In this document: positions 33,293-50,240 of the stretch, piece by piece
Position numbering within the stretch: position 1 is the stretch's first letter
Layout: the number at the start of each line of letters is the position of its first letter
Origin: Clostridiales bacterium
Lineage (GTDB): Bacteria > Bacillota > Clostridia > Peptostreptococcales > Acidaminobacteraceae
NCBI GenBank assembly: GCA_016933835.1
Contig: JAFGAC010000194.1
Location: 1-64,000, forward strand
Length of the DNA: 64,000 bases
Direction: 5' to 3'
Position numbers and translations under genes: made by a program
Notes under the pieces: model-generated
The model's database searches: none
Told to the model about the DNA's origin: nothing
Seen by the model: the letters and a program-made list of their open reading frames with translations, nothing else

Positions 33293-34704
33293 TTAAACTC
33301 ATTCAAATTCCAAAAGAAATGCAATATGATTTTACTCACATTGCAAGAATATTTTTTGATGAAGTACAAAATACCATTCAAATTGACAATGAAGGATATG
33401 AATTGTATTATTCATCAGTGGATAATGAAACGAAAGTTTCATTATTTTTTGATGGCGAAATGATGAATGAATCTGTGTCTGAAAATGAAAAAATGTCAGT
33501 GAAAAAGTCCCTTTATGATTTGTTGAGTACTGTAAAAAAAAGTAAAAGCCAATATGGTATTTTAGTTGGCGTAAGACCTGTCAAAGTTGTACATAAGTTG
33601 CTTGATGAAAACAAATCTGTTTTGGAAGCTAAAGAGATAATGATGGAGAAATTCAGAGTGGATCCAATTAAAGCAGATTTATTGATTGATGTAGCGATAA
33701 CTGAACGAAAACTTATATTTAAAGATTATGATGCCATCAGTCTATATATTGGAATTCCGTTTTGCCCATCTATTTGCACGTATTGCAGTTTTCCTTCAAA
33801 TGATATAAATAAAAAATCTAATCTAGTCGATCCATATATGGAAATGCTGTTGGAAGAAATTAAAACAACTTTTAAATTATTGAATATGACTAATAAGAAA
33901 GTGGATAATATTTATATAGGTGGTGGTACACCCACATCTATTTCTGCCCAACAATTAGAAACTTTGCTTAAAACACTAGATGATTATGTGGATATTGAAA
34001 TGGTTGGTGAATATACTGTAGAAGCCGGAAGACCAGATACTATTACTGATGAAAAATTGAAAATAATGAAGAATTACGGTGTCAATAGAATTTGTATAAA
34101 TCCACAAAGCATGAATAATGAAGTTCTAAAAGTAATAGGAAGAAATCATACAAAAGAAGATATATTCAGTGCATATAAAATGATTGAACATTATAATTTT
34201 AATGCCATCAATATGGATTTGATTGTGGGCTTGCCTGAAGATACAATTGAAAGTCTAAAAGAGACGGTTAAAGAAGTCCTGATACTTCAACCCGATAATA
34301 TAACAGTTCACACATTAGCAATAAAAAAAGCATCTCATATTAAAAACAATCCAGAACAATACCATTTACTCAACAGTCAAAAAATATCTGAAATGTTAAA
34401 ATATATTGAAATCAGCATGAAAGAAAATGGGTATAAACCATATTATCTTTATAGGCAAAAAAATATTTTAGGTAATTTTGAGAATGTAGGATATGCACTT
34501 GATGGAAAAGAATCGATTTATAATATGAGAATTATTGAAGAAAAGCATAATATACTGGCTTTAGGTGTTGGAGGTGTATCAAAAAAAATTGTTGGAGAAA
34601 ATCATTTTAATCGAATACCTAATTTTAGATCAGTGGAAGACTATATACATCGATTTGATGAAATGATTAGTAGAAAGAGAACATTCTTGAACTTGACAGA
34701 ATAA
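33289..34704 (+). CDS. hemZ: oxygen-independent coproporphyrinogen III oxidase-like protein HemZ
   Basis: A radical SAM protein of 471 residues. The CxxxCxxC cluster is CPSICTYC (about residues 161-168), followed by SFPSND; YIGGGTPTSI and NPQSMNNEVLKVIGR are HemN/HemZ-type signatures. The N-terminal 150 residues match the HemZ subgroup. It may convert coproporphyrinogen to protoporphyrinogen, but many members of this group in non-haem-making anaerobes have another or unknown role, and no other haem genes are in the window. It overlaps the MBL gene by 4 nt and is followed by the T-box leader. Confidence 0.9.
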   Translation: MIKLIQIPKEMQYDFTHIARIFFDEVQNTIQIDNEGYELYYSSVDNETKVSLFFDGEMMNESVSENEKMSVKKSLYDLLSTVKKSKSQYGILVGVRPVKVVHKLLDENKSVLEAKEIMMEKFRVDPIKADLLIDVAITERKLIFKDYDAISLYIGIPFCPSICTYCSFPSNDINKKSNLVDPYMEMLLEEIKTTFKLLNMTNKKVDNIYIGGGTPTSISAQQLETLLKTLDDYVDIEMVGEYTVEAGRPDTITDEKLKIMKNYGVNRICINPQSMNNEVLKVIGRNHTKEDIFSAYKMIEHYNFNAINMDLIVGLPEDTIESLKETVKEVLILQPDNITVHTLAIKKASHIKNNPEQYHLLNSQKISEMLKYIEISMKENGYKPYYLYRQKNILGNFENVGYALDGKESIYNMRIIEEKHNILALGVGGVSKKIVGENHFNRIPNFRSVEDYIHRFDEMISRKRTFLNLTE

Positions 34705-34738
34705 AAGATATAATTTATTATCTAAATAATAGAATAAA

Positions 34739-34913
34739 TTGGTCGAGGAATAGTAGTAGAATTGATAAACATAAAGAGATTCAAGCATTTGGTGGAAGCT
34801 TGATTGTTTGAAATTTACGAAGACATCTCACGAAGACTTTCCAAAATGAGAGGGTTTTACCAATTAGGGTGGCACCGCGAGTCATATCGTCCCTAAGTTT
34901 AGGGGCGTTTTTT
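34739..34913 (+). promoter_or_regulatory. T-box riboswitch before hisS-aspS, apparently tRNA-Asp type
   Basis: The conserved T-box AGGGTGGCACCGCG lies at 34866-34879. Stem I contains AGTA (34752-34755), a lower helix GGAA (34747-34750) with TTCC (34839-34842), and a distal hairpin TCAAGC (34781-34786) with GCTTGA (34798-34803). By alignment with the alaS leader the specifier is GAC (34835-34837, Asp). The tRNA-end-pairing bulge is TGGC (34870-34873), which fits discriminator G73 of tRNA-Asp, not C73 of tRNA-His. An alternative reading is CAC (34829-34831, His). The terminator follows at 34888. Confidence 0.93.
34888..34913 (+). terminator. T-box-controlled terminator before hisS
   Basis: CGTCCCTA (34888-34895) pairs with TAGGGGCG (34900-34907), followed by six T. 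The 5' arm can alternatively pair with AGGG of the T-box to form the antiterminator. Confidence 0.9.
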
Positions 34914-34931: not shown

Positions 34932-36236
34932 ATGATTAATAAACCTAAAGGAACCATGGATAAACTTCCGAAAGAAGTAGCAAAATGGCGTTATGTCGAA
35001 GAAAAATTCAGAGATGTTTGCCAGCGTTTTGGTTTTAATGAAATTAGAACCCCTCTCTTTGAATATACAAAATTGTTTAAAAGAGGTGTAGGTGAAACAA
35101 CAGACATAGTTCAAAAAGAAATGTTTACTGTGATTAGTGACGCAAATTTAAAAAAATACAATGCAGGGCATTTTGATTTAGATAAAAAAGGATTTACATT
35201 AAAACCGGAAGGAACAGCTCCTGTCGTAAGAAGTTTTGTTGAAAACAAATTATATGCTGATTCACAACCAACAAAATTGTTTTATATTACACCTTGTTAC
35301 AGAAATGAGAATCCTCAAGCAGGTAGACTAAGAGAGTTTCACCAATTTGGCATTGAAACATTCAGTTCAATCAGTGCAATGACAGATGCTGAAATTATTG
35401 CTGTAGCAATGCAGTTTTTTAAAGAACTGGGTCTAAAGGATTTAAAATTAAAAATAAATAGTGTCGGATGTAAAGAATGCAGACCTGTATATAATCAGAA
35501 ATTGAAAGAATATATAGAACCTAAGCTAGATCATTTTTGCGATACTTGCCAAGGAAGATATGATACTAATCCATTGAGAATATTAGATTGTAAGATTGAT
35601 TCCTGTCAGGAAGAATTGATAACAGTACCTATTATTACAGATAATCTTTGTGACAATTGTCAAACACACTTTAATGAACTAAAAAAATCACTTGAGGCAT
35701 TTTCTATAGAATATGAAATAGACCATAAAATAGTAAGGGGTCTGGATTATTACACTAAAACAGCTTTTGAAATTATATCTGAAAATATTGGCTCACAATC
35801 AACTGTCTGTGGAGGAGGCCGATATGACGGTCTCGTTCAGGAAGTAGGTGGCCCGGAAATACCTGGTGTTGGTTTTGGAATGGGTATTGAAAGGCTTATA
35901 ATGACTTTAGAAGGTGAAAATGTTCCTTTTCCGGAAGATAATACTTTAGATGTGTTTATTATTACTTTAGGGGAAGAATCTAAGTATGAAGGATTAAAAA
36001 TAGCTAATGAATTAAGGAAAAATGGTATTTCTTCAGATTTTGACCATATTGATAGAAGTCTAAAGGCTCAAATGCGATATGCTGATAAAATGAACGTGAA
36101 ATTCACCATTATTCTGGGAGAAAATGAAATAAAAAATTCTAGTGTCAATATCAAAAACATGATTACAGGAGTTCAAACTGAAGCAAATATCAATGATATT
36201 TCTAAGAGAATAACTGAATTATTAGGAGGAAAATAA
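34932..36236 (+). CDS. hisS: histidyl-tRNA synthetase
   Basis: Class II synthetase that charges tRNA-His. 434 residues from the ATG at 34932, which has AAGGAGG before it; a longer frame extends upstream into the T-box leader and is not used. Visible motifs are TPLFEYTKLFKRGVGETTDIV (motif 1 region), LREFHQFGIE (motif 2), the histidine-binding VRGLDYYTKTAFEI and the motif 3 GVGFGMGIERL. A short insert with CxxC pairs (CKEC, CDTC, CDNC) lies in the middle. aspS follows without a gap. Confidence 0.95.
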   Translation: MINKPKGTMDKLPKEVAKWRYVEEKFRDVCQRFGFNEIRTPLFEYTKLFKRGVGETTDIVQKEMFTVISDANLKKYNAGHFDLDKKGFTLKPEGTAPVVRSFVENKLYADSQPTKLFYITPCYRNENPQAGRLREFHQFGIETFSSISAMTDAEIIAVAMQFFKELGLKDLKLKINSVGCKECRPVYNQKLKEYIEPKLDHFCDTCQGRYDTNPLRILDCKIDSCQEELITVPIITDNLCDNCQTHFNELKKSLEAFSIEYEIDHKIVRGLDYYTKTAFEIISENIGSQSTVCGGGRYDGLVQEVGGPEIPGVGFGMGIERLIMTLEGENVPFPEDNTLDVFIITLGEESKYEGLKIANELRKNGISSDFDHIDRSLKAQMRYADKMNVKFTIILGENEIKNSSVNIKNMITGVQTEANINDISKRITELLGGK

Positions 36237-38018
36237 ATGGCTGAAGCATTAATAAATATGAAAAGAACACATTACTGTGGTGTTCTAAGAGAGACTGATA
36301 TCGATAAAAAAGTAATTTTAATGGGTTGGGTTCAGAAAAAGAGAAATCTTGGAGGCTTAATTTTTGTTGATTTGAGGGATCGTGAAGGTATTGTCCAAAT
36401 AGTTTTTGACTCTGAAATTTCTCAAGAAATTTTTGATAAAGCAAATGGTATCAAAGGTGAGTATGTCATTGCTGTTGAAGGTATTGTAAAAATGAGGGAA
36501 TCAGTCAACAATAATATTCCTACTGGTAAAATTGAAGTATTTGCAAGTTTGCTGAAAATTCTATCTGAATCAGAAATTCCCCCTATACACATTAACGATG
36601 ATGATAATGCTGGTGAAAATTTAAGATTGAAATACAGATATTTAGATCTAAGAAAGCCTAAGATGCAGCAAAAACTGATTTTTCGTAATAAAGTTGCCAA
36701 ATCCATTAGAGATTTCTTTGATAAAGAAGGATTTGTTGATATTGAGACACCTTTTTTGAATAAACCTACACCAGAAGGTGCTAGGGATTATCTCGTACCT
36801 TCAAGAGTTAATCCTGGACATTTTTATGCATTGCCGCAATCACCTCAAATATTTAAACAATTATTGATGGTATCTGGAATGGATAGGTATTATCAAATTA
36901 CTAAATGTTTCAGGGATGAAGATTTAAGAGCAGACAGACAACCTGAATTTACACAGATAGATGTTGAAATGTCTTTTATTGATATGGAAGATATATTGGA
37001 AATTAATGAAAAAATGTTGAAAGACGTTTTCAAGAAAACCATGGACATTGAATTGAAAATACCATTTAATAGAATGACTTATGATATTGCCATGGAGAAT
37101 TATGGAAGTGATAAACCGGATCTTAGATTTGGTTTTGAATTGAAATCAATCGATTCTTTAGCTGCAAATTCTTCTTTCCAAGTTTTCAGTTCAACAATAG
37201 AAAGTGGGGGAACTGTCAGAGGAATCAATGTAAAAGGATATGAATCAAAATTTACTCGTAAAGATATAGCGAAATTAGAAGAATATGCTAAAATCGTTGG
37301 AGCAAAAGGATTAGCTTGGATGAAATTTAAAGATGGTGAAGTCAGTTCACCTATTGCTAAGTTTTTCAATGAGTCAGAACTTGAAGAATTGAAGAATATA
37401 TTTGATGCTTCTGATGGAGACTTGCTGTTATTTGTTGCCGACAAGAAAAATGTCGTTTTAACTGCACTTGGGGCATTAAGAGTAGAATTAGCAAAACAAC
37501 TTGATTTGCTTGATTCCAAGAATTTGAATTTTGTATGGATTACAGAATTCCCATTGTTTGAGTATGATGAGGAAGAAGACCGCTATGTTGCTAAACATCA
37601 TCCATTTACTTCACCAATCGATTCAGATATGGAACTATTGGAAAGCGCACCTCATTTAGTCAAGGCAAAAGCTTATGATATTGTCTTGAATGGTGTTGAA
37701 ATTGGAGGAGGAAGCATTCGAATTCATCAGTCAAATTTACAGAATCGCATGTTTAAAGCACTGGGACTAGGTGAAGAAGAAGTCAATGAGAAATTTGGAT
37801 TTCTAATAGAAGCTTTTAAATATGGAACTCCACCACACGGTGGAATTGCTTATGGATTAGATAGAATGGTCATGTTGATGACAGGTTCTGACAGTATACG
37901 AGAAGTGATTGCATTTCCTAAAACTCAAAATGCTACATGTTTAATGACAAATGCTCCTGGATTTGCTGAGGAAAAACAACTTGTCGAGTTGAGTATTAAA
38001 TTGGATTTAGGTGAATGA
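36237..38018 (+). CDS. aspS: aspartyl-tRNA synthetase
   Basis: Class II synthetase charging tRNA-Asp, 593 residues. It has an N-terminal OB-type anticodon-binding domain (GWVQKKRNLGGLIFVDLRDR), motif 2 FRDEDLRADRQPEFTQIDVE, the bacterial GAD insert (about 300-420) and motif 3 GIAYGLDRMVMLM. It begins immediately after the hisS stop codon with GGAGG upstream, so both enzymes depend on the T-box. Whether it is discriminating (Asp only) or also charges tRNA-Asn cannot be read from the sequence by eye; no gatCAB genes are in the window. Confidence 0.96.
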   Translation: MAEALINMKRTHYCGVLRETDIDKKVILMGWVQKKRNLGGLIFVDLRDREGIVQIVFDSEISQEIFDKANGIKGEYVIAVEGIVKMRESVNNNIPTGKIEVFASLLKILSESEIPPIHINDDDNAGENLRLKYRYLDLRKPKMQQKLIFRNKVAKSIRDFFDKEGFVDIETPFLNKPTPEGARDYLVPSRVNPGHFYALPQSPQIFKQLLMVSGMDRYYQITKCFRDEDLRADRQPEFTQIDVEMSFIDMEDILEINEKMLKDVFKKTMDIELKIPFNRMTYDIAMENYGSDKPDLRFGFELKSIDSLAANSSFQVFSSTIESGGTVRGINVKGYESKFTRKDIAKLEEYAKIVGAKGLAWMKFKDGEVSSPIAKFFNESELEELKNIFDASDGDLLLFVADKKNVVLTALGALRVELAKQLDLLDSKNLNFVWITEFPLFEYDEEEDRYVAKHHPFTSPIDSDMELLESAPHLVKAKAYDIVLNGVEIGGGSIRIHQSNLQNRMFKALGLGEEEVNEKFGFLIEAFKYGTPPHGGIAYGLDRMVMLMTGSDSIREVIAFPKTQNATCLMTNAPGFAEEKQLVELSIKLDLGE

Positions 38019-50006: not shown

Positions 50007-50040
50007 TTGATTTTTTGTTATAATGAAAAAAATATATAAT

Positions 50041-50240
50041 ACTGCGTTGATAGAGCTAAGTAAATTGCCTTTGTTAAGAGAGAAAGATCTAGGCTGAAAA
50101 TCTTTCGTTGTGATTGAAGCTACTCTTGAGTACCGATCCTAATAAGATCGGCGTTGGTTGCGTTAAAGACCTTTTTTCCTCTAAAGAGACTGTCTGTTGG
50201 CAGTAAGTAGGGTGGTACCGCGGTAATTCGCCCCTATATA
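50041..50240 (+). promoter_or_regulatory. T-box riboswitch before alaS (tRNA-Ala)
   Basis: The conserved T-box AGGGTGGTACCGCGG is at 50209-50223. Stem I has AGTA (50059-50062), a lower helix AGAG (50052-50055) with CTCT (50123-50126), and a specifier GCT (50119-50121, Ala) followed by A. The TGGT bulge (50213-50216) fits discriminator A73 of tRNA-Ala. The 3' arm CGCCCCT (50229-50235) can form the antiterminator with AGGG. I see no terminator hairpin with a T-run before alaS. TATAAT sequences at 50019 and 50035 are candidate -10 boxes. Confidence 0.93.

Follow-up and report, generated by a model that had tools for sequence, protein, structure and literature searches.

T-box leaders upstream of hisS-aspS have been described before. 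According to PMC5313534, which draws on Gutierrez-Preciado 2009, T-boxes of hisS-aspS operons carry the sequence GACAC and mainly contact tRNA-Asp, and hisS would give no response to uncharged tRNA-His. An Asp-reading hisS-aspS T-box is thus not new in kind, and the control of hisS by Asp supply is already known from the literature. T-boxes without Stem II (Class II) have been described as glycine-specific (PMC10482949). The alaS T-box of C. acetobutylicum represents a further deletion variant and is reportedly canonical elsewhere (PMC4695836, which also describes the AGUA S-turn motif of the T-box specifier loop).

The window analyzed here, the whole stretch of 64,000 nt, contains a hisS-aspS operon preceded by a compact leader (Table 1). 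This leader matches the Rfam model RF00230 at 34736–34897 with 74.8 bits and an E-value of 1.4e-16 (401 bases searched; 2e-16 in a search of the whole genome) and is, by this match, a genuine member of the T-box riboswitch family. Its score lies below the gathering score of the model (93 bits), probably because Stem II and Stem IIA/B in the middle of the model have no counterpart in the compact leader. The T-box that the earlier note had assigned to this operon is real, given the RF00230 match, the T-box sequence AGGGUGGCACCGCG, the UGGC bulge, the terminator with its U-run, and hisS and aspS directly downstream. The antiterminator (34866–34894) and terminator (34888–34907) overlap and are mutually exclusive, and amino-acid genes follow; by energy alone, the antiterminator fold of −6.9 kcal/mol is no better than shuffled sequences. 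A similar promoter is present upstream of the leaders in most relatives. The only T-box in the window above the Rfam cut-off is that of alaS at 50038–50238, with a GCU specifier and UGGU.

Table 1. Features of the hisS-aspS locus (window positions)
Feature	Position	Strand	Evidence
Sigma-70-type promoter, TTGACA - 17 - TATTAT	34693–34721	+	11/12 consensus matches; transcription start expected near 34728
Compact T-box leader with Stem I, Stem III, and antiterminator/terminator	34736–34913	+	RF00230; U-run of terminator reaching 34913
Stem I basal helix, 5′ strand GGUC, pairs with GACU 34835–34838	34741–34744	+	Compensatory variation among relatives
Helix below specifier loop, 5′ strand GAGG, partner UCUC	34745–34748	+	Rfam alignment, covariation test
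AGUA of specifier-loop S-turn, opposite GAA 34819–34821	34752–34755	+	Conserved in family alignment
Stem I apex: AGAGA bulge 34775–34779, UCAAGC/GCUUGA stem, GGUGG distal loop 34791–34795	34775–34803	+	Rfam alignment
Specifier GAC (Asp), then stacking purine A34825	34822–34824	+	Rfam alignment; GAA-(N)-GACA invariant in 12/12 family leaders
Helix below specifier loop, 3′ strand UCUC	34826–34829	+	Rfam alignment, covariation test
Non-specifier CAC: final base of UCUC and first two of bulge	34829–34831	+	Family alignment, helices
One-sided bulge ACGAA at usual K-turn place	34830–34834	+	Flanked by two covarying helices
Stem I basal helix, 3′ strand GACU, holds second GAC	34835–34838	+	Compensatory variation
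Short Stem III, GGU-UUU-ACC	34853–34861	+	Rfam alignment
T-box sequence, UGGC bulge 34870–34873 for tRNA end GCCA	34866–34879	+	Sequence, Rfam alignment
Antiterminator	34866–34894	+	Open-bulge fold, −6.9 kcal/mol
Intrinsic terminator 34888–34907 and U-run	34888–34913	+	−12 kcal/mol, z −4.5
hisS, histidyl-tRNA synthetase	34932–36236	+	ORF; full-length orthologues at most 81% identical in relatives
aspS, aspartyl-tRNA synthetase, directly 3′ of hisS	36237–38018	+	ORF; adjoins hisS in nearly all relatives

The specifier triplet sits in the internal loop of Stem I together with the AGUA/GAA S-turn. We assign it to the first GAC (34822–34824) based on the Rfam alignment, an alignment of 12 leaders from the taxonomic family of the source genome (one from Fusibacter paucivorans), and the layout of other aminoacyl-tRNA synthetase (aaRS) T-boxes in this genome. 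All 12 family leaders have GAA-(N)-GACA at the first site, and the second GAC site varies. The same layout, GAA(N)-codon-purine, is shared by the T-boxes of pheS (UUC), ileS (AUC), asnS (AAC), valS (GUA), metG (AUG), alaS (GCU), and a glycyl gene (GGC), which we take to be such genes from recognition of their protein sequences and, for asnS, also from a family match. The earlier note had placed the specifier at the second GAC, 34835–34837, which is wrong by 13 nt according to the Rfam alignment, the family alignment, and the position rule of the aaRS leaders. The letters that it had read, GAC at this site and CAC at 34829–34831, are both there, and its choice of triplet is explained by a short direct repeat, ACGAAGAC, which occurs at 34817–34824 and 34830–34837 and ends in GAC in each copy. 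This shared local context is also what would speak for the second GAC as the specifier. We consider such a reading extremely improbable because the second GAC has no purine directly 3′, pairs with GUC 34742–34744 in a covarying helix, and is swapped in relatives (UACC in L102, CGC in L124), and because the Rfam covariance model, run on the leader, matches it with the first GAC and not the second in the specifier loop.

The basal helix that contains the second GAC changes its letters and keeps its pairing among relatives, as GGUC/GACC in L020, UGGUAU/AUACCG in L102, GAUAAU/AUUAUC in L119, GCG/CGC in L124, and CGUCU/AGACG in L125. With fixed geometry and one leader per clade, the cognate score was reached by 4/5040 and 2/5040 permutations (identity included) in two sets of seven leaders; these small counts are somewhat optimistic because the helices had already been spotted by eye when the geometry was picked. 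Free-strand duplex energies of 5′ versus 3′ strands failed to distinguish cognate from non-cognate pairs (680/5040), in part through a wrong cut of the L124 5′ strand and in part because free duplexes are blind to geometry. Single-sequence folding on its own lends little support to Stem I (z +0.7). Judged from this comparative evidence, the second GAC is a structural element that closes the base of Stem I. The result settles which triplet is read and is relevant wherever T-box specificity is assigned by eye or by pattern. In the Stem I apex, the AG and GGTG columns are invariant in the 12 family leaders. The minimum-free-energy fold of the leader prefers a 7-bp helix, AAUUGGU/ACCAAUU (34737–34743/34859–34865), which would be a competitor of the Stem I basal helix as well as of Stem III. 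Three of the seven clades of the taxonomic family have this helix at equal or reduced length, and this candidate was rejected because it is lost in L119, L124, L125, and L126.

The source genome encodes a tRNA-Asp (GUC) ending in GCCA and a tRNA-His (GUG) ending in CCCA, so that the discriminators G73 and C73 given in the earlier note both hold in this genome. The UGGC bulge is complementary to GCCA, as opposed to CCCA on tRNA-His, and bulge and specifier concur on Asp, the latter through the first GAC. We further compared 56 distinct T-box hisS leaders from Clostridia (drawn from overlapping collections, with duplicates removed by sequence and kinship otherwise ignored), whose specifiers were assigned by eye from the layout rule. 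The specifier is GAC in 46 leaders and AAC in 10, with no stand-alone CAC or CAU among the 56, and the bulge is UGGC in 42, UGGU in 14, and UGGG in none. Taken from these sequence features, the leader very probably reads uncharged tRNA-Asp. A T-box responding only to tRNA-His through CAC 34829–34831 would suit an operon whose first gene is hisS, and the letters are present. Its probability appears close to nil, because this CAC, which the earlier note had itself named as the triplet that would count against its reading, lies outside the specifier loop, straddling a helix end and the adjoining bulge, varies in relatives (CUCAUAAAA, CUCAAUAA), and would leave C73 of tRNA-His mismatched with UGGC. 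In TBDB, discriminator matching is left aside for His because C73 of mature tRNA-His can be paired (PMC7778990).

The claim that the leader reads tRNA-Asp therefore stands on the specifier, UGGC, G73, and the 56 leaders; its other half, "not tRNA-His," is likely yet short of proof, since a His codon, CAU, overlaps the specifier within GACAU. Both tRNA-Asp (GAC) and tRNA-His (CAU) might thus read GACAU, with shortage of either inducing the operon. TBDB admits T-boxes with two overlapping codons (PMC7778990), and GAC or AAC is followed by A and a pyrimidine, forming CAC or CAU, in 50/56 hisS leaders, a share above that of NNC specifiers for other amino acids (16/26; Fisher p 0.006). However, NNC-A-pyrimidine is also common in pheS, ileS, and asnS leaders with UUC, AUC, or AAC (16/21, p 0.16), and such an overlap is expected from T-box architecture, in which the base after the specifier is a purine and the helix then opens with a pyrimidine. 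Six hisS leaders keep GAC or AAC and lack CAY (GACG in L153, L181, and L192; GACC in L171; AACG in L202 and L230). The triplet of the window leader, CAU, would need a wobble pair, and its U sits in a helix; UGGC is also unfit for C73, and the 56 leaders are without UGGG. Weak dual sensing is given a low but non-zero probability because the excess disappears against UUC, AUC, and AAC specifiers and the lineages are not independent. We regard induction by shortage of either tRNA as unlikely, and as more unlikely still a T-box that lacks Stem II, IIA/B, and K-turn and whose GACAU is read by tRNA-Asp and, through wobble, by tRNA-His. If dual reading were true, one leader would answer to both enzymes of its own operon.

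AAC (Asn) replaces GAC in the hisS(-aspS) leaders L076, L082, L167, L170, L178, L188, L189, L202, L230, and L231. In half of these genomes (5/10), no asnS exceeds the family cut-off, which would suit a T-box tracking a tRNA-Asn possibly charged by AspRS, and the other five carry asnS. The association between an AAC specifier and the absence of asnS is weak (5/10 against 7/40, p 0.046, with lineages that are not independent).

Combining the anatomy, helices, tRNA ends, and conservation observed directly with tRNA binding, antitermination, and induction as taken from known T-box biology, we consider it highly likely that a transcriptional T-box riboswitch controls hisS-aspS by sensing uncharged tRNA-Asp through GAC 34822–34824. 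The specifier would pair with the anticodon GUC of tRNA-Asp, and the elbow of the tRNA would be gripped by the Stem I apex. If the tRNA-Asp is uncharged, its free GCCA end would then pair with UGGC, favoring the antiterminator over the terminator, and both hisS and aspS would be transcribed. Charged tRNA-Asp would make no contact with UGGC, and transcription would end. It follows from this mechanism that hisS would be induced by lack of charged tRNA-Asp, as the earlier note had proposed, that is, by Asp and not His shortage.

Members of this taxonomic family share a compact leader in which about 45 nt separate the specifier from the T-box sequence (12 leaders), versus at least 83 nt in other hisS leaders; longer forms occur in other families of the same order (L103, L104, L106, and L107). 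Stem II and Stem IIA/B are absent from the window leader and all 12 family leaders. The window leader has no room for them, as the 41 nt that lie between A34825 and the T-box sequence also house Stem III. A K-turn (GA motif) was not found at the Stem I base of the family leaders, where tandem G-A pairs do not fit; at its place they have a one-sided bulge of 4–9 nt between two covarying helices. In the same genome, the serS (L012), leuS (L015), and glycyl (L011) T-boxes are also short between specifier and T-box sequence, and that of leuS has no obvious K-turn. In the portion of the literature covered, we found no earlier description of a compact Asp T-box lacking Stem II, IIA/B, and a canonical K-turn.

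Compared with the hisS-aspS T-box in PMC5313534, the window leader has the same operon, the same Asp triplet, and the same inference of tRNA-Asp over tRNA-His, but differs in having GACAU and no Stem II or IIA/B; GACAC itself is found in the relatives L018, L099, L101, L102, and L020. Canonical Class I T-boxes (B. subtilis tyrS type, and hisS-aspS leaders L103 and L154 of other clostridial families) share with it the specifier loop, apex, T-box sequence, antiterminator, and terminator, whereas they possess a K-turn and, between specifier and Stem III, Stem II and IIA/B. The C. acetobutylicum alaS T-box (PMC4695836) is likewise non-glycine and devoid of Stem II and IIA/B, but its specifier is GCU for Ala, and the window leader is without the canonical GA motif. 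Class II T-boxes of the B. subtilis glyQS type (PMC10482949) have in common with the window leader a long Stem I with an apex motif and the lack of Stem II and IIA/B; the window leader, however, carries signals for Asp (GAC, UGGC) rather than glycine and has a one-sided bulge instead of the K-turn. The GAC/GUC pairing consists of two G-C pairs and one A-U pair, as against the strong glycine-type pairing, and the compact form naturally puts to the test the idea that Stem II is dispensable only under the latter.
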